Virus record (IMG/VR): IMGVR_UViG_3300036399_001501
Span: 1-38,839 of that record
From: a virus
DNA length: 38,839 bases
Strand: one strand, 5' to 3'
The position numbers were made by a program, and so were the translations under genes. This document shows positions 2,971 to 36,114 of this stretch, one piece after another (within the stretch, counting starts at the first letter, position 1; each line of letters starts with the position of its first letter). Under the pieces are notes generated by a model. The model made no database searches and had not been told where the DNA came from. It saw only the letters and a program-made list of their open reading frames with translations.

Positions 2971-3678
2971 TTATTGGAAGGTGGCGGAGTAGCGGCGAAC
3001 CTCGCCTCGGCGGAGCCAGGCGTCGTCCATGCGCTGCATCAAGACGCCTTCGGCGCGGACGAATTGGAACTGGCTCTTGTCGTATTGCCCGTCCTCAGCC
3101 AGCGTCTCGGCAACGGCGTAGAATTTAATGTAGTCCGCCAGGAAAGTCGGGATGCGGTGGCGGAGCCAGAACGTGGTATCTGTCGGGAGGTTGCCGGTCG
3201 TCGCTTGGATTGCCTCGTAGCAGTCGCCGGTCGTGTTGTAATAAACCAAGTCGCCCTTGGCATAAGTCGTGCCGGAGCTAAAAGCCGTGTCGGTAAACCG
3301 GGGAATGGGCAGGGCAAAGAACACATACACATCGCCGGTCGTGTAAGCCGCGTCTGTGATGGTGAGGGCGTCATCCGTCAAAACAAATTCCAGCTCATCG
3401 GCGATGCCCGTGGCGGCGGGGTCCGAAGCATACACAGCCTCGACAGCGCCAATCGGCGTGAGGCCAGTTTGGTAGAGCGCAATGCTCCCTGCCACCACCG
3501 CTCTCTGCTCGATCTGCGTGGTGTCGGGCCAATCATAAAACCCCCAAGCCAGCGCGGCCGCCGTCGTCGCATACTCGGCAATCGCCGATGCCTGCGAAGG
3601 CAGCAAACTCTGCTCAGGATCAATGCCCATGCGCTGGATGATCCCATCGCGGATCGTGCGGTAAGGTGTCGTCTTCAT
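2971..3678 (-). CDS. Head-tail connector/adaptor-like protein
   Basis: A 235-aa protein starting with ATG at 3678, in a 4-nt ATGA overlap with the portal stop, which supports co-translation with the portal. The N-terminal approximately 60 residues are helical (TIRDGIIQRMGIDPEQ, AIAEYATTAAALAWGFYDW), as in short-tailed phage adaptor proteins placed right after the portal. Residues about 140-175 (YAKGDLVYYNTTGDCYEAI followed by a FW motif) resemble the carbohydrate-binding-like module of the fibre at 468-2141. Function is inferred from position and fold pattern: it probably forms the ring between portal and tail. The adaptor assignment is moderate, and a tail-tube-like role is possible. Confidence 0.7.
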   Translation of the reverse strand: MKTTPYRTIRDGIIQRMGIDPEQSLLPSQASAIAEYATTAAALAWGFYDWPDTTQIEQRAVVAGSIALYQTGLTPIGAVEAVYASDPAATGIADELEFVLTDDALTITDAAYTTGDVYVFFALPIPRFTDTAFSSGTTYAKGDLVYYNTTGDCYEAIQATTGNLPTDTTFWLRHRIPTFLADYIKFYAVAETLAEDGQYDKSQFQFVRAEGVLMQRMDDAWLRRGEVRRYSATFQ

Positions 3679-5872: not shown

Positions 5873-5946
5873 TGGTAGCAGGCCACGGAATTGAACCGTG
5901 TTCTCAAGGGTATGAGCCTTGCGAGTTGCCGTTTCTCTCGCCTGCA
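5873..5946 (-). tRNA. tRNA with CAT anticodon (Met or lysidine-type Ile)
   Basis: A 74-nt cloverleaf read on the minus strand. Acceptor stem: six pairs plus a U:U at the first position. D arm GAG/CTC. Anticodon stem CAAGG/CCTTG with a 7-nt loop CTCATAC, so the anticodon is CAT. Variable loop AGAA. T arm CACGG/CCGTG with loop TTCAATT. Discriminator A, followed by an encoded CCA. The anticodon stem lacks the three consecutive G-C pairs of initiator tRNA, so an elongator Met or Ile(CAU) tRNA is more likely. It sits inside the virion operon, between 5962-6309 and the portal, so it would be processed from the late transcript. Confidence 0.85.
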
Positions 5947-23890: not shown

Positions 23891-24069
23891 CGTTGGCTGT
23901 AGCGGTCGTTCTCCCGCATGGTTCGTGCTTCGCCGCGTGTGCGGAGCCAGAAGTATTCTTGCCGTAGGGCGGTGACTTGGGGCGGCATGTTGAGCCGGTA
24001 TCTGGCTTTGACGATGCCTTCGATGTCTTCCGCCTGGCGTTTCTTAACGCGAAATTTGACCTTGCCCAC
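23887..24069 (-). CDS. Hypothetical small basic protein at the operon end
   Basis: 60 aa with high Lys/Arg content (KVKFRVKKRQAEDIEG ... RLNMPPQVTALRQE). Overlaps the 3' end of the giant-protein gene by 26 nt and its stop by the convergent hairpin. No domain recognised. A DNA- or RNA-binding role is possible from charge only. Confidence 0.5.
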   Translation of the reverse strand: MGKVKFRVKKRQAEDIEGIVKARYRLNMPPQVTALRQEYFWLRTRGEARTMRENDRYSQR

Positions 24070-27000
24070 TTGACTCGGCGGCTGCGCCAGATAGGTTTAT
24101 TCCACCTGGGGTGCCTACAGAACCTGCCTGAATGACAGCATCCGTAGTAGCCGGCGTCGCGTTGGTTGTGGCGTTTGTCGGAGACCCTGACAAAGCGGCT
24201 GGAGGTGGAAGTAATTCCACTTTTGCTACCCCCTTGAATTGCCGATCGCGCAGTTCAAGGGGGTATTGCGTTACAAAACCAGAATCAAAAGGTTCTTGGT
24301 CAAGGAAAACTCCTTCTCTAGTTGTAACCACCATGTGGGTTTTTCTTCTATATTTTCTGAAATAGAGCACTTCAGAGCCTGCATAAACTTTTACCGGAGC
24401 GTTTTGGATTGTTTCTGGGACAGCTGCTAACCATTGAGCTTTTTCAGGATCGAGTTCACGCACGTTGCTCCCCTTTTTTAACTCGCGACCTGTGGCATGT
24501 TCTGCGCGGTTCTTGATTTTGTCTGAGTAGGCGCCTCGAGTTTGCGGATTGGACAAAAGCACCGTAACGCCTTTGCGATCTACGGCGCTTTTAACTTCGG
24601 TTAAAAATCGAGTTGCGTTTACAACAACCTCGTCTTTAGACCGACCGATTGTAAAAGCGGGAGCATCGACATCCTCACTTGGCAAAAAACGCTTCACACT
24701 ATTCCAGTTGTCGCCGTTTTTAACTTTTGACCAATTATCAACGATGCGACCATCAGGCATTCTGACATCCGGCATTGCCTGCCCTAGCAGGTCTTTTGAC
24801 AAGTCTGGGAGCGGGTTTGATATTTCCGGAAACAAATTGCCGTTGGCTTTATTGTAGTCGAAGTGGAAACCCTGGCGACCGGTTCCGATGGCGGCGTCCA
24901 CGCGGTCGAGGCGGAATTGTTTGATCGCGCTGCCAGGCCCGAAAGAACCATTGAGCGGGTTTTTATTACGATTGTTGTTGGTGGCAATTCCGACAAGGGC
25001 ATTAAGGGCGTCGCGCTTTACGGTGCCAATTCCCGCTTCTCCCGGCAGGTTGGCACGGTGGTTTTCCATCCATTGTTTTAGGTCGGATTCAATCTGGCCG
25101 ATCTCCCAATTAAACGGCGCAAGGGCCTCATTGCGGTTGTTAATGGCGCGCAAAGCGCGGTTGCGGAATTGGGTGAGGTCCAGGACGACGGCGTTGAGAT
25201 TACCAGCTTTTGTGAGTTGCCATTCAAAAGGGACTACCTCGCGCGTTATGGCCACGAGATTACCAAGGTTTTTGATGCGAAATGCTCCAGTGTCTCCGCT
25301 GCCTATGGCGTGGTATCGCACCTGCATACTCTCACCAGTCTGGCCAAATTGCTCGAACTGGCGGGCAAAGTTTCGGATGTGCGGCATGAATCCGTTTAGG
25401 AAGTCAAATTGCGGCGGTAAAATCTTACCACGGATTAAGACCCTGCCATCAGAAGTTTTCTTGGGACCGAGAATTGGGTTGTTTGGTTCAAGTAGTTTTG
25501 ATCCACCAAGGGCTTTGACCTGTTGCCGGATTTTGTCGTGGGCAGCGTTCAGGTCGCGTTGATCGCGCAGCATGGCTTGGCCAGTGGCGGGGTTTTCAAT
25601 GGCGAATGCGTTGGCTTTTATTCCATCTCCCCGGTCGTAGAATGTGACTTGTGGGTTGTTGGAAATGTCGCTGGCGCGAGCGGCCGGGGCTACGCGGACT
25701 CCGGCTGGCTTTTCATGGCCTGGGTTATTGGCCCATTGGCGGTAATTTGAGATGTAGGTTCCGAGCTGCTTGACAAGCGCTTTGTCAGTGGCGAGTAGAG
25801 GGTTTTTAGCAAAGAGGTCGGCGGGCTTTTCTAGCGGGGCTCCGGTTTGAGGATCGATGCGGACTCCGCTGGCTGAAAGGGCCCGCGCTTGAGCCCCAAG
25901 TATAGCCTCGGCAAAAGTGAGAAAATTTTCTCCAGCCGGGGCTCCTCGGCGAATGGCGTTGAAATCCATTGATTCGCTGGCCTTGGCAAAAGTCTCGGCA
26001 AAAATCTCGTCTCGGGCCCAGTCCAAGCCATCCATATCGCCCCGGGCAAGGCCTCCTTGCGAGAGGTTATCCATCTCGCTTGTAAGCGTGGCAGGAGATA
26101 TTTTGAGATCTTCACTTGGAAATGCTTGGGCATTTTTAGCGAGGATGATGTTGCTGGCATATTCAGCCGCTCGTGCCTTGATGCCATCCAGCCCATAGGT
26201 TTTATCCACCCAAGCGCGGGCCGCATATTTCTGCTGCCCATCAAGGGCACCGCTGGCAATCAGAGCGTGGCCGAATTCATGCGGTTCGATACCTTGGCGT
26301 TTTGCATCGAGGTTTATATAGACCTTGGCACGCTCCCCGGCGGGGGCCTGCACAAATAGCCCAGCAGACCCTGCTCCGCCATTGGCTGCCACATTGGCAT
26401 TGTAGTCGGTGGCGTTGAGCGGGATGAAATCCAGACCATTGCGGAATGTGCCTTGAAGCGATGCAAGTTTTATGAGGCTCTCAGGCGTCTGCGTGGACAT
26501 CATTTTACCTACATCGCCACCGGCAAGTTCCACATCGACAAGCATGCGGGAAACATCGGAGATGGCAGCTTGTTGGCGGCGTTGTTGCAGGCTTGTGAAG
26601 CGATCCACGCCACCTCCTAAAGCACCAAAGGCGGCACCGGCTCCCAACATCGCGGCGGCTTCTTCGTCATCACCGGCATTGGTTGCAAGCAGAGCAAAAG
26701 GGGCGTTGACAGCCGTGCCTTTCACAGCACCCTTGGCAAGCGCACTGGCTCCACGCACCGATTGCACAATGGTGGGATTTGAAAGCCTGCCCATAAGCCC
26801 ACGCATCTGCGGTGACAGGGATTGCTCAGCCGCGAGGCGGGCAGGAGTGCTTTCGATCGGAATAAAATTAGTCGGGCGCTCCAGCACCTCCTTGAAGACC
26901 TTCGGCACAGAGGGATTGGCCAGCACAGCGGCGCGTGCGGCTTGGTCCAGACCATTGGTGGCATCGGCAGATTCGCGCAGGATGATCTTTGCAGCCCCGG

Positions 27001-28243
27001 CTCCGGTTTCAATTTTGCGGAGCACGCCCATGCCTGCCTTGTAAGCCGGGTAGAATCCGGCAATAGCAGCCGTGACTTCCGGAGGCGCTCCGAGAGTCGC
27101 AGCCCCTGCCGCCAAGCCCCCGCCCACGCTGGAGCGGGTGAGAGTTGTTACTACATTACCAGCAGTAGAAGGAGTAAGGCCGGTCGTATTTGTAACGACA
27201 TCGACAAAACGGTTTGCCAAAGCTTCGCCGCCATCCGCAAGGCCTCCAGCGACCTTTCCAATTACTCCAGCAGTTTTAGCGCTGACCGTTTTGCCAAACC
27301 GAGAAACGCCGAGGGCTTTTGCTCCTGCACCAAAAGGGATCAAGTTCGTCGGGTCTGCCACAATTTCCAAAACTCCTGCTTGAGCAATGTTTGGAGTCTC
27401 CTGCTGGTTTCTTCCTGTCACTAAGCGCGTGAGCAATTCGGTAGGCGCAGTCTGCTCTCCCAGGGCTTGGTATTCGGCATCGATGCCCTTTTTGGCAATG
27501 TAGTTCTGAAACTCGTAGTCCTTGATGTCGTCCTCGGTTGTCGGGCGGAGTTTGCGTCCGGCATCCAATGCGTTTTGGAGTTGGACTTCGTTGTTGTAGA
27601 AGAAAAAATCGCCGGTCTGCTCATCGCGGTATTTTGGAGCGCCCTGCATAGCCTCTGCCGCCCAGCCGCCAAGCTGCATCGCACCGAGCGCGGCACGGCC
27701 GATGCCGGTCTGAAGCGTAGCTGCAGATTTGGCCGATGTCTCAAGCGGCGAAAAGACAGCCGTATTAAACGCATCAAGCGCCGTGACGACGAGCCCCCCT
27801 ACGGCCTTGGCGGCGAGTTCTGCGGTGCCGGGCAGTTTGCCTTCGGCTTTGAGCCGGTCCTTGGTGGCCTTTAGGTCGAAATACTCGTCGCGTGTTGGCG
27901 CATAGTTGGGGTCGTCAAAGAGACGGGCAGCTTCCATGTCCAACTGCTCGGTAGTAAATTCCTTTGGCTTGCTGGCTTTTTCCAGCACATCGAGTTCCTC
28001 TGTGGTGTATTCCCGCGATGCTTCAAGCTGGGCCACAGGCCCCATGGCGGGCCCACGGGATAGAGACGCCCCCTTCCCGCTGATCAATTCGGGGGAGCCT
28101 GTCGGTTCAGGCGCTGTGAGTGTGCTTGCTACGGGAGCAGAGGCCGTTGGGGGAATAGGGCTATCCTGCACCGGCAGCTCGGCTGCGGCCATGGCGTCCA
28201 ACTCCTCGGTGGTGAATTCTCTAACGAGGGATCCAGTTGCCAT
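24044..28243 (-). CDS. Giant virion/ejection protein with zincin and nuclease-like ends
   Basis: A 1,399-aa multi-part protein. Residues about 8-110 carry three (E)F/Y-TTE-E/Q-LD units; a hydrophobic/Gly-rich region follows (about 150-550). H655-E-F-G-H659 with a later DEIFAET fits an HExxH metallopeptidase (zincin). The C-terminal approximately 130 aa (VKVYAGSEVLYFRKYRRKTH then DQEPFDSGFV) resemble the nuclease-like ends of phage polyvalent proteins. No such function is proven. Such proteins are often packaged and ejected to process host targets. It overlaps neighbours on both sides. Confidence 0.65.
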   Translation of the reverse strand: MATGSLVREFTTEELDAMAAAELPVQDSPIPPTASAPVASTLTAPEPTGSPELISGKGASLSRGPAMGPVAQLEASREYTTEELDVLEKASKPKEFTTEQLDMEAARLFDDPNYAPTRDEYFDLKATKDRLKAEGKLPGTAELAAKAVGGLVVTALDAFNTAVFSPLETSAKSAATLQTGIGRAALGAMQLGGWAAEAMQGAPKYRDEQTGDFFFYNNEVQLQNALDAGRKLRPTTEDDIKDYEFQNYIAKKGIDAEYQALGEQTAPTELLTRLVTGRNQQETPNIAQAGVLEIVADPTNLIPFGAGAKALGVSRFGKTVSAKTAGVIGKVAGGLADGGEALANRFVDVVTNTTGLTPSTAGNVVTTLTRSSVGGGLAAGAATLGAPPEVTAAIAGFYPAYKAGMGVLRKIETGAGAAKIILRESADATNGLDQAARAAVLANPSVPKVFKEVLERPTNFIPIESTPARLAAEQSLSPQMRGLMGRLSNPTIVQSVRGASALAKGAVKGTAVNAPFALLATNAGDDEEAAAMLGAGAAFGALGGGVDRFTSLQQRRQQAAISDVSRMLVDVELAGGDVGKMMSTQTPESLIKLASLQGTFRNGLDFIPLNATDYNANVAANGGAGSAGLFVQAPAGERAKVYINLDAKRQGIEPHEFGHALIASGALDGQQKYAARAWVDKTYGLDGIKARAAEYASNIILAKNAQAFPSEDLKISPATLTSEMDNLSQGGLARGDMDGLDWARDEIFAETFAKASESMDFNAIRRGAPAGENFLTFAEAILGAQARALSASGVRIDPQTGAPLEKPADLFAKNPLLATDKALVKQLGTYISNYRQWANNPGHEKPAGVRVAPAARASDISNNPQVTFYDRGDGIKANAFAIENPATGQAMLRDQRDLNAAHDKIRQQVKALGGSKLLEPNNPILGPKKTSDGRVLIRGKILPPQFDFLNGFMPHIRNFARQFEQFGQTGESMQVRYHAIGSGDTGAFRIKNLGNLVAITREVVPFEWQLTKAGNLNAVVLDLTQFRNRALRAINNRNEALAPFNWEIGQIESDLKQWMENHRANLPGEAGIGTVKRDALNALVGIATNNNRNKNPLNGSFGPGSAIKQFRLDRVDAAIGTGRQGFHFDYNKANGNLFPEISNPLPDLSKDLLGQAMPDVRMPDGRIVDNWSKVKNGDNWNSVKRFLPSEDVDAPAFTIGRSKDEVVVNATRFLTEVKSAVDRKGVTVLLSNPQTRGAYSDKIKNRAEHATGRELKKGSNVRELDPEKAQWLAAVPETIQNAPVKVYAGSEVLYFRKYRRKTHMVVTTREGVFLDQEPFDSGFVTQYPLELRDRQFKGVAKVELLPPPAALSGSPTNATTNATPATTDAVIQAGSVGTPGGINLSGAAAESSGQGQISR

Positions 28244-29249
28244 TGGGCTGTTGGATAAATGTTTTGCCGCCGATTACGCGGGTGGCGGGTTGTTGGGGTT
28301 GGGCCGTTGCGGATGGCGGTGCGGCTTGGGCAGTATTAGCAGCGCTCGCTTGCGGGGCGTTTGCTTGGGAGCGGGCTTGGGCTTGGGCGAGAATGCCGTC
28401 AAAGTCCATGAGGGCTTTATTAAACCCCTCTTCTGTCTGGCGCGGATTGAGTCGCGCAATGGCAGCTGTGGCTTTTGCGCCTTCCTGCTCGGTGATTTGG
28501 CCTCCGCCTTTGAGATTATTGAAGGCTTGCATGAATGTGCCCCCCTGCACCTGTTCGAGCAAAGTGTAAAAGTCCGCAGCCCTAGTGCCGCTTATAGGTT
28601 CTTTCTTTATGCCAAAAAAGTATTCTGGCCCCTTCGCTCCAACCGAAGTGCTCATACCGGGATGGCTTTTTAGCTCCGCCAACATCTGTCGCATATTGGA
28701 AATCTCGGAGGATGCCGCTTGCTTGCGTGATTCCATTTGCGCGACTTCGGCTTGCGATTTCTGCAAGTCGAGCTTGGCATTTTCCAAGCGAGCCTGAATT
28801 TCCGGCGAGTTTACGATCATGTTATTCACCATATCCACCTTGCGGCCGTCGCTGGTTGTCACGGTCTGGACTTGGTTGGCGCGGGAGCGTTTCACGCTGT
28901 CCTGGTAGATGCGCACGGCGTTGTTGGAAGTAATCTGACCGCCGGAAGACATGGCAGCGCGAACGACTTCCTTCTGGTGCGGAGACATGGCATTCCACTG
29001 CTCTTTGCTTGTAATGCGAATGCGACGGCCTGCGGCAAGCTGTGCGGCCAAGTCGTCCAACGGTTCCTCTTCCTGACCGTCCATGGCATCCATCGCGCTC
29101 CCGACAGGCTGTTGTGCCGTGGCGGGATCGCTGGGGTCGAGAGCCGATAGCGCCGGGCCGGTAGGAAGGATGCTGTTTGGGTCCGGGTCGTTGGTAATCG
29201 ACGGCAACGGCACGGTGTTTACGAAAGCAGTTTGTGCGCGGGAGGACAT
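28221..29249 (-). CDS. Internal virion-like protein
   Basis: 342 aa, helical and Gln/Ala-rich, with a coiled coil (RLENAKLDLQKSQAEVAQ, about 155-190), a GGGQITEQEGAKATAAIARL motif near 250-275 that I recall from ejected virion proteins, and a C-terminal Pro/Gln/Ala tail ending KTFIQQPNGNWIPR. ATG 29249 follows a TTGACA/TAAAAT-like pair (29256-29275). Overlaps the giant gene by 23 nt. A DNA-ejection or core role is inferred. Confidence 0.65.
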   Translation of the reverse strand: MSSRAQTAFVNTVPLPSITNDPDPNSILPTGPALSALDPSDPATAQQPVGSAMDAMDGQEEEPLDDLAAQLAAGRRIRITSKEQWNAMSPHQKEVVRAAMSSGGQITSNNAVRIYQDSVKRSRANQVQTVTTSDGRKVDMVNNMIVNSPEIQARLENAKLDLQKSQAEVAQMESRKQAASSEISNMRQMLAELKSHPGMSTSVGAKGPEYFFGIKKEPISGTRAADFYTLLEQVQGGTFMQAFNNLKGGGQITEQEGAKATAAIARLNPRQTEEGFNKALMDFDGILAQAQARSQANAPQASAANTAQAAPPSATAQPQQPATRVIGGKTFIQQPNGNWIPR

Positions 29250-29255
29250 GGCAAT

Positions 29256-29275
29256 ATTTTACTGCCAGATGTCAA
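29256..29275 (-). promoter_or_regulatory. Weak TTGACA-N8-TAAAAT pair (site 4)
   Basis: TTGACA and TAAAAT are 8 nt apart, ending 6 nt before the ATG of 28221-29249, like sites 1-3, but it overlaps the end of the upstream coding sequence (GIDIWQ stop), so it may be chance. Confidence 0.25.
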
Positions 29276-29753
29276 TACCATCGGCGACTTCAACCGAGAG
29301 GGCTGGATTGGAACCTCCGCCACCACCGGCGAGGGCGGCTTTCTGATTCGCGAGGATTCTGGCTTGATTGTATTGGTTGTTTTGATTATAGCGGGTTTGG
29401 AGATTTTCCATTGCGGGCATAAAAGCCATCATGGCTCCTGCCATTTTGTCAGGGTTGTTTCCTGCCTTACCCAGTTCCGCTTGGAGCGCTTGCCCGAGCG
29501 CCATGCCCTCTTTTCCATACTGCGGGAGGATGGCTTGCATAGCGGAGCCTGTGGCTTGCACGCCTTCGAGCTTGGCCGTGGTTTCCCGAGATTTGGTAAT
29601 GGCTCCGGTGATGCCGCCTGCAAAATTTGTCACGCCGCTGGCTATGCCTTGAGCGAGGGCTTCATTGCCAGCGGCTTTGATTTCGGCGGAGCGGGCTTTG
29701 GAGGCTCCGAGGATCTGGCCGGAGTTGTCGTTGACGGTAGGGTTGTAGGTCAT
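29259..29753 (-). CDS. Virion-module helical protein
   Basis: 164 aa: N-terminal polar, then Ala/Gly helices (EALAQGIASGVTNFAGGITG) and a Gln/Asn-rich end. The ATG at 29751-29753 lies in an ATGA overlap with the YkgJ-like gene, which shows the start although the open frame extends to 30020. Typical of internal virion proteins next to T7 gp14-type genes; function unproven. Confidence 0.65.
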   Translation of the reverse strand: MTYNPTVNDNSGQILGASKARSAEIKAAGNEALAQGIASGVTNFAGGITGAITKSRETTAKLEGVQATGSAMQAILPQYGKEGMALGQALQAELGKAGNNPDKMAGAMMAFMPAMENLQTRYNQNNQYNQARILANQKAALAGGGGGSNPALSVEVADGIDIWQ

Positions 29754-30046
29754 GGTGTGGGGAGGTGTTTGGATTGGCGGGCTTCTATGCAGAGTGGGCT
29801 GCCAGGCTGGAAGGACCGGCAGGCGGATGGGCGAGCATGATATATTGCGCAGGCGACTCCTCGGCCCACCTCGCCACGGAGGGCGATGCAGCGGCCGCAG
29901 GGGTCGGTTCGTAGGAGGGGATAGTCTGTGCGTATCCAGTCGTGCGGGATGCCGGTGGCGTCGGAGCGGTCGCGCTTGAGCACGGGCCAGCTCCAACGGT
30001 GCGAGCAACATGCGCCACACCGTTGACAGTCGTATTGGGATTCCAT
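29750..30046 (-). CDS. YkgJ-family metal/Fe-S-binding protein
   Basis: A 98-aa Cys-rich protein. CQRCGACC near residue 7, CGRC near 50, then CAIYHARPSACRSF near 66-80 make the eight-cysteine YkgJ/UPF0153 pattern that binds metal or Fe-S. ATG 30046. Most of the gene (262 nt) overlaps, in a different frame, the 3' end of the PAPS-reductase-like gene; the two may be frameshifted parts of one product. Its partner is probably that enzyme. Function of the family remains unclear. Confidence 0.7.
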   Translation of the reverse strand: MESQYDCQRCGACCSHRWSWPVLKRDRSDATGIPHDWIRTDYPLLRTDPCGRCIALRGEVGRGVACAIYHARPSACRSFQPGSPLCIEARQSKHLPTP

Positions 30047-30879
30047 GTGGGTTTGAAGCCTTGCTCTGGGATGGCGTTGTCTTCGTAGGGGGCGAGGTGG
30101 GCGATGCTGTTCACCTCGCTGCGGAGCTTGGGGCACCACACGGGGGCTGAGAGGTGGCGATTCACGCAGTTCCAGCAGATGGGGTAGTAGTCGGCGTTGT
30201 GGGATTTGTCCTGCTTGTGGCCCCACTTGCCCGAGGCGCGGTCGTAGCGGGTGGGGTCCATCGGGACGCCTTCGGCTTCGAGGTAGTCGAAGATGTCGTC
30301 GTCGGTCCAATGCCGCATGAGGAAAAGCTGGGTAGGGCTGTCATCCACACGGCGCACATCCTGGGCGAGCGGCACGCCGCCTTTGATGAGATCGACATCG
30401 GCGCTTTTCTGCCCGTGGAATGCGGCGTCCCACGGCCAGTTGAATGAGCCGGTGGGGCGCTGGAGGACATCGGTGAGGCCGCACAGGTAGGGCTCGCCTT
30501 CCTTGGGGTGCTCGGTGCCGAGGCTGAGGACGAGGGCGCTGTGGTGGCCCCACTGGTAGTATTTGAGGAAATCGAAACGGGCCTCGCCGGTCTCGATGTC
30601 GAACCCGTCTTGGATGGCGATGCGGCCGGGAGCGTAGTCGAAAAGGGTCAAGTCCCACCAGCGGGCGAGGAGGTCGCTGTGGGCGTAGCGGTGGCGGAAG
30701 CGGGGTTCACGCCATTGGACGCAGGGGAGCCGCACGCCGAGCTTGAAGATGAGGAGGTGCAGCATGGCGGTGCTGTCCTTGCCGCCGCTCCAGAGGACGA
30801 CGGGGTTGCGAAATTCCCGCAGCCAATACTCGGCGCGGGTCAAAGTTTCATCGACGAGGTTTTGCAGGTGTTGTGTCAT
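29785..30879 (-). CDS. PAPS-reductase-like PP-loop enzyme
   Basis: 364 aa as an open frame. PP-loop SGGKDSTAMLHLL at residues 31-43, then an N-type ATP-pyrophosphatase layout and a Cys-His C-terminal core (YPICWNCVNRHLSAPVWCP, about 245-263). Phage PP-loop enzymes of the CysH/DndC kind use adenylated substrates, sometimes for DNA modification. Beyond residue about 278 the sequence is antisense-like, low-complexity and out of frame with YkgJ, so the true C-terminus is probably near 30046. ATG 30879 is in a TAATG overlap with the upstream gene. Confidence 0.75.
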   Translation of the reverse strand: MTQHLQNLVDETLTRAEYWLREFRNPVVLWSGGKDSTAMLHLLIFKLGVRLPCVQWREPRFRHRYAHSDLLARWWDLTLFDYAPGRIAIQDGFDIETGEARFDFLKYYQWGHHSALVLSLGTEHPKEGEPYLCGLTDVLQRPTGSFNWPWDAAFHGQKSADVDLIKGGVPLAQDVRRVDDSPTQLFLMRHWTDDDIFDYLEAEGVPMDPTRYDRASGKWGHKQDKSHNADYYPICWNCVNRHLSAPVWCPKLRSEVNSIAHLAPYEDNAIPEQGFKPTWNPNTTVNGVAHVARTVGAGPCSSATAPTPPASRTTGYAQTIPSYEPTPAAAASPSVARWAEESPAQYIMLAHPPAGPSSLAAHSA

Positions 30880-31850
30880 TAAATAGCAAGAGCGGTCATG
30901 CCGAGCACCATGCCGCCAGCGGCCATGCCGGAGCCCATCATGGAGTTTTGGGATGCGCCAGCGGTGGCTCCGGCTTGCATGGCCGCTCCGCGCAGGGCGG
31001 CTTGGTTGTTTTGGAAGCTGTTGTAGCGCGACTCCAGCATGTTGTTGTTGAAGCTGGCGACATTTCCGGCCATCTGGTTGGCTTGGTTGTAGGTGTTGCC
31101 GATCATCTGGCCGGAGTTGCCCAGTGTGCTGCCTCCCAGGCCGAGGGCGGGGTTCATGGCGCGGGAGTAGGGGTCTATGGTTATGTTGGCTCCGGCCAGG
31201 CTGGTGCGCAGGTTGGCTTGGTTGAGGCGCGTGTTGGCGGCTTGGCCGAGGATATTGCCTACGAGGCCGAGGCGGTTCTGGCGGTTGCCGACGAGCATTT
31301 GGTTGGTGGATCCGGCGAAGTTCCGGCGTTCGGCCTCGCGGGCGCTGGCGTAGGCGTCGCGGTTCAGCACTTCGGCGGCGAGGGCTCCGGTGCCGGTGCC
31401 CAGTCCACGGGCGGACATCCCAGCGCGGGCTTGCTGGGTGGCGGCGCGTTCCTGCTCGGCGCTGAGGCTGCGGCCCAGGGCGAGGTCGCCTTCGGCTTGG
31501 CGTTGCAGCTCACGCTCGATGTCGGTGCCTTGCAGGTCAGCGGTGGCTTGTTGGCCAAGCTGCTCGGTAGATGCCGCTATGCTTCCAAGCTGGGTTGCCT
31601 GGTCTTCGGCGGCGAGGAGTTGGTTGGTGGCTCGCTGGGTGTAGGCGTTGTTGTTGCCAGAGAGTTGGCTGGAGAGCTTGCCGATTGTGCCGAGTTGCAG
31701 GGCTTCGAGTTGCGGGTAGGTTTCGATCTGCGCGGCCGCTTGGTCGCGGTATTGCGACTTGGCCTGCTCGTTGCTCTGCGACATAAGCGCGGCGTAATCG
31801 ATAGGCTGCGCTTGTGGCACGGATTTCTTCTTGGATTTCTTATTAGCCAT
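30879..31850 (-). CDS. Internal virion protein, T7 gp14-like in style
   Basis: 323 aa: Lys-rich N-terminus, then long helices (GTIGKLSSQLSGNNNAY, DIERELQRQAEGDLALGRSL, QERAATQQARAGMSARGLG), with Gly/Ala/Gln-rich C-terminal low complexity (MGSGMAAGGMVLG). This pattern is typical of small ejected core proteins of podoviruses. TAATG overlap with the PAPS-reductase-like gene. Function inferred from style and position. Confidence 0.7.
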   Translation of the reverse strand: MANKKSKKKSVPQAQPIDYAALMSQSNEQAKSQYRDQAAAQIETYPQLEALQLGTIGKLSSQLSGNNNAYTQRATNQLLAAEDQATQLGSIAASTEQLGQQATADLQGTDIERELQRQAEGDLALGRSLSAEQERAATQQARAGMSARGLGTGTGALAAEVLNRDAYASAREAERRNFAGSTNQMLVGNRQNRLGLVGNILGQAANTRLNQANLRTSLAGANITIDPYSRAMNPALGLGGSTLGNSGQMIGNTYNQANQMAGNVASFNNNMLESRYNSFQNNQAALRGAAMQAGATAGASQNSMMGSGMAAGGMVLGMTALAI

Positions 31851-34666: not shown

Positions 34667-35128
34667 TTAATTATGGGGAAGCGTGTCAAGTAGGGCGCGA
34701 ATGGCCGGTGCGTGGATGCGCGGCTCGCCGCTCCAACGGCAGCGGTCGGCGATGTGGGCAGGGCTGTAGCCTTGGTAACGCAAACAGGTTTGAGTGACAC
34801 GCTCGAGGAGGTGGGGCGGGATGCCTTCTACGGCAGCGGGCGGTTTGACGGAAATCTTGGTGGTTTTTTGCGTCGCTTTTGGTTCGGCTTTTTCGACGAT
34901 GCGGTAGCAGGTCACAGGGATAGCTTTCATGGAAGCGGCGTCCCACTCGGTAAATTTCCTTTCCTCGATGTCTTTGGCAGCAATGGCATCGGCAAGGTCT
35001 TCGCGGAGGTCGCGGGGATTTACTCCCAGTTCGCGGGCTACTTGGGTGCGGGTCTTCCAGCCTTGTCCTGGCGGGATGCGGTGCTTGGCCGCTTTGTGTT
35101 TAATGACGATGGCGGTAAAAGATTTCAT
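34667..35128 (-). CDS. HTH-containing hypothetical protein
   Basis: 153 aa with an HTH-like segment (TRTQVARELGVNPRDLREDL, about 26-45), a central beta part and a C-terminal helix (PPHLLERVTQTCLRYQGYSP). The end overlaps the TTGACAC box. ATG 35128 is coupled by ATGA to the phosphoesterase stop. It may be a transcriptional or packaging regulator inside the virion operon; a small terminase is an alternative. Confidence 0.6.
   Translation of the reverse strand: MKSFTAIVIKHKAAKHRIPPGQGWKTRTQVARELGVNPRDLREDLADAIAAKDIEERKFTEWDAASMKAIPVTCYRIVEKAEPKATQKTTKISVKPPAAVEGIPPHLLERVTQTCLRYQGYSPAHIADRCRWSGEPRIHAPAIRALLDTLPHN
34669..34689 (-). promoter_or_regulatory. TTGACAC-N-ATAATT box (site 2)
   Basis: Nearly the same as site 1: TTGACACGC then CCCC and ATAATT, ending 8 nt before ATG 34660. 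Part is coding (the DTLPHN C-terminus of 34667-35128). The box may be an intra-operon promoter, a regulator site or an RNA-level element. Confidence 0.45.
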
Positions 35129-36114
35129 GGCGATTTTGGTTTGAGGAGGAGGCTGGCGTAGCTCGTGCCTTCGTTAATGGTGATGTTAGTCATCTGGAAG
35201 TTGCCGGTCTTGCGGCTGATGAAGCGCACGAGGTAGCCGTGTGTCCACTCGGTGGGGCGGGTGTTGGCGTAGAGAGGTTGGCGTTTGCAGAGGCAGCCGG
35301 GGTTCCACGCGCTGATGAGGCCGACGCCGGGCAGGTGCATAGGCTTGAATGCGGCGCGGTGGGTGTCGAAGAAAACGATGTTTCCTGCGGCCTTGGCCAT
35401 GGCTTGGCCAGCGGCGTCGCGGGCGTTGGAGATCTTGTGGACGAAGAAGGCTTTGTCGATTTTCACCCAGCCAGGCGTGTCGCAGTCGCCGTGCGTCTGG
35501 CCTTGCCGGTAGTAGCGGATGCCTCGGTCTTTCAGTCGCAAGACATGCTCGGGGCAGAAGGTGCGGCGGAGCAAATCGACATCCTTGTGGTGGGCGAGGC
35601 GTTGCGTGAGTGCCCATCGCTCCACGCGCCATTCATGGTTGCCTTCTACATAATGGACCTCGGAGGGTCGAGCGGCATCAAGGATTTGGTCCAGGAGGGA
35701 GTTGGAAACGGCAACATCCTCTTCGTAGGAATCTTCGGTCTCAGCGACATAGCCGAGCGTGTGGTGTTCAGCAAGGAAGCCGCCGCAGTCAATAAAATCG
35801 CCGCCGATGATGAGTCGGTCGGGTCGGAGAGTGCGGAGGTCGCCCAGAAAAGCGGCCATGGCAGCAGGGTCGTGTTTGTTGCCGTGGACATCGCTAAAGA
35901 TGACTTCCACAATATCTCCCGTTCCTGCTTTGGATGTTGCCGGGGTGATCTTCTTGGGAGCCTTGGCAAAACGAGAGCGCTCCAGAGCTTTGACCGTCTC
36001 GGAATGGGCGCGGCGCTCGGCTTCGAGCTGGGCGCGGGCCATGGCGGCGTCGTTCTCGGCGGCGGTGACTTTGCTGGCGTTGACTACTTCAAGTAGGCTG
36101 CGTTGGTTTTTCAT
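35125..36114 (-). CDS. Metallophosphoesterase
   Basis: 329 aa, calcineurin-like fold. Metal motifs: D75/H77 in FSDVHGN, D106 in GGDFID, N159/H160 in GNHEW, a later THR that resembles the GHTH motif. The N-terminal approximately 60 aa are coiled-coil-like. Enzymes of this kind cleave phosphate mono- or diesters with two metals; substrate unknown. ATGA overlaps at both ends. Phages carry such enzymes in DNA metabolism or tail modules. Confidence 0.8.
   Translation of the reverse strand: MKNQRSLLEVVNASKVTAAENDAAMARAQLEAERRAHSETVKALERSRFAKAPKKITPATSKAGTGDIVEVIFSDVHGNKHDPAAMAAFLGDLRTLRPDRLIIGGDFIDCGGFLAEHHTLGYVAETEDSYEEDVAVSNSLLDQILDAARPSEVHYVEGNHEWRVERWALTQRLAHHKDVDLLRRTFCPEHVLRLKDRGIRYYRQGQTHGDCDTPGWVKIDKAFFVHKISNARDAAGQAMAKAAGNIVFFDTHRAAFKPMHLPGVGLISAWNPGCLCKRQPLYANTRPTEWTHGYLVRFISRKTGNFQMTNITINEGTSYASLLLKPKSP

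Follow-up and report, generated by a model that had tools for sequence, protein, structure and literature searches.

Stop-codon loss as the probable origin of a long overlap between a PP-loop ATPase gene and its constant ykgJ-like companion in uncultured freshwater phages

A gene for a PP-loop ATPase and a gene for a small, Cys-rich YkgJ-like protein occur together constantly in a family of uncultured freshwater phages, and it is this joint occurrence that we regard as the lasting finding of the analysis. In the viral sequence analysed here (IMG/VR record IMGVR_UViG_3300036399_001501, positions 1–38,839; this whole stretch of 38,839 nucleotides is called the window below) the two genes also overlap by 262 nt. 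The full explanation that we consider probable is that the overlap arose by stop loss and gave the enzyme a passenger tail, that the genes have been reshuffled at their junction, and that they encode two partner proteins.

Both genes lie on the minus strand of the window. The PP-loop ATPase ORF (30879..29785) encodes 364 residues including the tail, with a conserved WSGGKDS motif and four invariant cysteines (C133, C235, C238 and C249). The YkgJ-like ORF (30046..29750) encodes a CxxCxxCC protein of 98 residues with eight invariant cysteines, and the DNA at the junction shows that its ATG start (30044..30046) shares bases with the codon for Trp279 of the enzyme (A/TGG). The two ORFs have 29785–30046 in common, in agreement with the 262-nt overlap of PAPS-reductase-like and YkgJ-like genes reported in the first-pass annotation. 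Within this span codon position 1 of the enzyme frame coincides with codon position 2 of YkgJ ('phase 1'), YkgJ being in the -1 frame, and the enzyme TAG stop (29785..29787) falls inside YkgJ codons 87–88. The first of these two codons is ATA in the window and ATA, CTA or TTA in relatives, with GAA as the second in each case. An AlphaFold2 model built with 41 sequences has a confident core up to about residue 278 (30046..30879; mean pLDDT 78–98 per block of ten over residues 1–270), with pLDDT below 50 throughout residues 279–364 (29785..30045). The whole of this 86-residue tail, which is rich in Ala, Pro, Ser and Thr and is encoded in the -1 frame of YkgJ, is thus predicted to be disordered. 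Most gene starts on the minus strand of the window, both genes of the pair included, have weak or no Shine-Dalgarno pairing.

Relatives were gathered by protein-guided scans of IMG/VR. In the pooled census the two genes overlap at 92 loci, abut at 10, are separate at 45 and lie on opposite strands at 6. At 44 of the 92 overlapping loci the enzyme frame continues through ykgJ as far as one and the same TAG, which lies 244 nt beyond the first Cys of YkgJ; another 37 end at +115 (where the stop is TGA or TAA), 6 at +94, and the others at single positions. The overlap is in the same -1 frame at 88 loci and in the other frame at four distant ones. Among related contigs the arrangements form a graded series, from separate genes through abutting ones to enzyme ends at 94–118 nt and then 244 nt past the first YkgJ Cys. 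Relatives whose enzyme stops earlier, without overlapping ykgJ, are therefore present, in abutting and separate forms: in some the enzyme stops at the YkgJ cluster or just short of it, with short C-termini such as GFRPVVWSK and GFKPVSWSKE directly before the stop, and in some separate arrangements one or two genes stand between the enzyme and ykgJ. In one clade (L222, 2878–4101) the two genes are on opposite strands and converge, with six nt between them; in another (L048, 3998–4020) ykgJ would start with CTG, again sharing bases with the conserved enzyme Trp codon (NTGG). At a further locus (L219, 2233–3080) the PP-loop gene looks frameshifted just past the P-loop, as a broken gene or an assembly error.

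This comparative series bears directly on the three options that the first-pass annotation had left standing, i.e. a sequencing error, a frameshifted fusion or a real overlap of two partner proteins. That a sequencing or assembly error removed the enzyme stop was a suspicion raised by that annotation alone, for an assembly that is metagenomic, and its probability is now close to nil: the 44 loci with the same overlap and the same TAG come from many contigs at 79–98% identity, and one of them lies on a contig binned into a Chthoniobacter flavus MAG, where the same gene pair is found with an enzyme core at 87% identity and similar neighbours. Assembly error as the cause of the overlap is refuted by these independent, concordant loci, and the overlap of the enzyme and YkgJ genes is real. 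The MAG contig also hints at a verrucomicrobial host. A programmed -1 frameshift yielding a single PP-loop/YkgJ fusion protein might be suspected from the position of YkgJ in the -1 frame and from the 88 codons over which the YkgJ frame stays open upstream in the window. However, several relatives have stops in the YkgJ frame 5–6 codons before its first Cys, YkgJ retains an NTG start at the junction, and separate and opposite-strand gene arrangements occur. Across 72 loci there was no conserved slippery site with an open downstream frame; slippery heptamers are present in 14 of the 72 and are of differing kinds, none of them shared. We therefore judge a fusion very improbable. Homologues are found as two genes, overlapping at the 92 loci but abutting, separate or on opposite strands at others, and it is the third option, a real overlap of two partner proteins, that the conserved overlap and the constant pairing support.

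The pairing itself was counted with enzyme queries only, leaving YkgJ out of the search criteria. A ykgJ gene was present at 103 of 103 checkable loci (57 overlapping, 40 separate and 6 abutting), a count that is inflated by shared ancestry, and the pairing holds across enzyme cores down to 34–40% identity and in every gene order seen. Left out of the 103 were 17 loci with a contig end within 1500 nt downstream and 2 truncated loci, and the 6 opposite-strand loci, which were found through YkgJ, are additional to them. The pairing of PP-loop enzyme and YkgJ is therefore robust, and the two most likely act together. A literature search found neither a PP-loop enzyme and YkgJ named together nor a description of their constant pairing.

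The origin of the overlap can be read from two trees. In the YkgJ tree the loci with the long overlap form a single clade (support 99/98), whereas in the enzyme-core tree they form three, and forcing them into one is rejected (AU p=1.6e-10). One YkgJ clade against three enzyme clades indicates that the tail travels with ykgJ and that the junction has been the point of exchange of enzyme cores. The trees are unrooted, so the direction of change is read from the many lineages with a short tail or none and from a complete phage protein of 265 residues that aligns to the enzyme core (TMt 0.93); these would favour stop loss over stop gain. In the mechanism that we propose, the enzyme and YkgJ would be partners encoded by two separate late phage genes, and the enzyme gene would have lost its original stop just after a Trp-containing C-terminus (GF.P.W), so that it now reads on to the first stop that the -1 frame of ykgJ offers. 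The 86-residue disordered tail would be a tolerated by-product of this loss, and its length would depend on the downstream ykgJ allele, since recombination at the junction brought various enzyme cores together with a single ykgJ lineage. The overlap itself is of a well-documented kind, since long phase-1 overlaps are expected from 3' elongation without selection (PMC3887535). It shares with those unidirectional overlaps (PMC3887535) both its geometry and the proposed origin by stop-codon loss, but differs in that the series documented here is graded and the reshuffling falls precisely at the junction. The case thus offers a clean example of how long phage overlaps arise, combining stop loss, graded tail lengths and junction reshuffling without any indication that the added tail serves a purpose.

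An open enzyme frame across the overlap might be thought improbable in itself, and this argument was rejected. With the YkgJ protein held fixed, 22–38% of synonymous recodings are also open under window codon usage and 52–70% under clade codon usage, i.e. a probability of openness of about 0.2–0.7 per sequence. The evidence for the overlap is its conservation and the comparative series, not its length alone. Within the overlap, the 4-fold divergence ratio of YkgJ to enzyme core shows no drop specific to the overlapped region: it is 0.82, 0.67 and 0.70 in three overlapped clusters and 0.86 in segment A of the +115 group, compared with 0.71 in segment B of that group, which is not overlapped. 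The tail is therefore without detectable amino-acid constraint beyond that of YkgJ. Its codon usage, examined as a test for a de novo tail, lies at the 18th percentile and is not clearly atypical.

These measurements have to be set against the alternative that the tail is an overprinted extension with a function under selection, which would either bind YkgJ as a disordered linker or docking segment or couple synthesis of the two proteins. Such a role would fit the recurrence of the overlap, mostly in one frame, across the overlapping loci, as well as the absence, at susceptible positions, of synonymous codons that would create stops. It would also fit the enzyme TAG, which is kept in 43 of 43 long-overlap loci although the first base of the YkgJ codon varies between A, C and T (ATA/CTA/TTA); in the +115 group, which does not use that TAG, a stop-forming codon is present at the same place in only 7 of 29. 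Conservation of the TAG may indicate that termination there is selected and hence that the tail is translated, but we treat it as suggestive only, because in the long-overlap group 19 of 80 degenerate third positions show no variation in any case. Against a functional tail, the susceptible positions are few and the frame would often be open by chance, synonymous divergence is not reduced specifically in the overlap, tail length varies freely among relatives and moves with YkgJ, and many lineages have no tail. On balance we think a selected tail unlikely, and the tail looks like a harmless, tolerated by-product of stop loss. The overlap as such, which recurs in most lineages and is found in another frame at the four distant loci, might nevertheless be favoured, for example for expression coupling.

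The enzyme belongs to the PP-loop fold family, for which 'PAPS reductase' is a loose label. The enzyme family is annotated as phosphoadenosine phosphosulfate reductase, and the window protein (P0001) scores 22.0 bits against PF01507 (cut-off 22.5) with a match around the P-loop only. All 41 aligned members match PF01507 (E<=0.01), all 41 contain SGGKDS (PP-loop SGGxDS), and Cys 133, 235, 238 and 249 are invariant among them. The catalytic ECGLH Cys motif of CysH was found in 0 of the 41. Both the top sequence-profile match (E=5e-13) and the top fold match (E=4.5e-6, TMt 0.57, a moderate similarity only) are to CysD, ATP sulfurylase subunit 2 (PDB 1zun_A), with which the enzyme shares the PP-loop and a W-[TS]-[DE]-x-D-[IV] segment. 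The enzyme differs from CysD in having four invariant Cys and in pairing with YkgJ; the NCBIfam CysD cut-offs are not reached (32.6 vs 195 and 27.5 vs 396.6 bits), and CysN was not found among the window proteins scanned. With CysH/APS reductase (4bwv, 6vpu, 2goy) the likeness is one of PP-loop fold family, and the single Cys plus CxxC of the enzyme resembles the three Fe-S Cys that APS reductase and DndC have in common (PMC12193691). An assimilatory PAPS/APS reductase carried as an auxiliary metabolic gene, with YkgJ an unrelated neighbour, would be in keeping with the PF01507 similarity at the P-loop and with the frequent annotation of phage genes of this PP-loop kind as cysH (PMC10914622). 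We hold it to be quite improbable, given the lack of ECGLH from every member, the CysD rather than CysH matches in family and fold, and the constant pairing with YkgJ. The same evidence carries a warning that some phage 'cysH' auxiliary metabolic genes may be one half of a constant PP-loop/YkgJ pair and not PAPS reductases. None of the isolated phages in the phage collection carried the enzyme.

The YkgJ-like protein (P0002) matches PF03692 (E=2.4e-8; 35 bits, above the gathering cut-off of 23). The four Cys of its CxxCxxCC motif are present in all 29 aligned members, the invariant Cys number eight altogether, and an invariant WSWP..xRDxSDA..I signature sets it apart from YkgJ/FliB (PF03692). 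It is not known to have an enzyme activity. FliB, which has a related PF03692-type motif and eight conserved Cys, coordinates a [4Fe-4S] cluster through the motif (PMC8598068); the protein described here shares the CxxCxxCC motif and four further conserved Cys but, at 98 residues, is smaller than FliB. By analogy it is probably an Fe-S protein and possibly a Zn protein. Its structure model (mean pLDDT 64) was too poor for a fold search, and a sequence search returned no relative of solved structure. Among phage records the only YkgJ match was on an evident bacterial chromosome fragment; the record 'Acinetobacter phage MD-2021a' (L406, CAKLQH020000013.1), with aceF, fhuA, guaB, recJ and genes of similar type, appears to be a piece of bacterial chromosome deposited as a phage.

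From these features we infer a physical partnership, together with its metal type and chemistry. The pair would be a two-component system of PP-loop enzyme and Fe-S/Zn partner carrying out sulfur-transfer or redox chemistry, because the PP-loop core is CysD-like, both proteins have invariant Cys, and YkgJ resembles the [4Fe-4S] protein FliB. The PP-loop protein would activate a substrate with ATP, and YkgJ would supply the Fe-S or thiol centre for sulfur transfer or redox chemistry. The layout of the enzyme is comparable with that of DndC (C146, C273, C280, C283; PMC12193691) in its PP-loop and in having a Cys, a CxxC and a fourth Cys, although its fourth Cys is on the opposite side of the CxxC from that in DndC. 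The match to the DndC profile (E 0.035–0.046, PADLOC) covers residues 18–45 only, i.e. the P-loop and not the whole length, and DndD, DndE and a cysteine desulfurase had no match among the window proteins scanned. The window thus lends no support to the first-pass suggestion that the two proteins might modify nucleic acids. A bolder and only tentative possibility is that the pair constitutes a so far unrecognised enzyme of uncultured phages, with two components and a sulfur- or radical-transfer chemistry, which is commonly mislabelled cysH, is encoded in an internal-virion cluster and modifies nucleic acid or a virion protein.

In the window the pair lies amid genes for probable internal-virion or ejection proteins (24044–31850). 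One of these (28221–29249) matches phrog_2534, 'released from the phage upon host infection', and the neighbours at 24044–28243 and 30879–31850 had no family match. Elsewhere in the window, 468–2141 and 2971–3678 have weak, below-cut-off matches to the carbohydrate-binding module CBM_5_12, a single tRNA-Met gene lies on the minus strand at 5877–5945, and a metallophosphoesterase gene (35125–36114) is found near the tail-fibre region.
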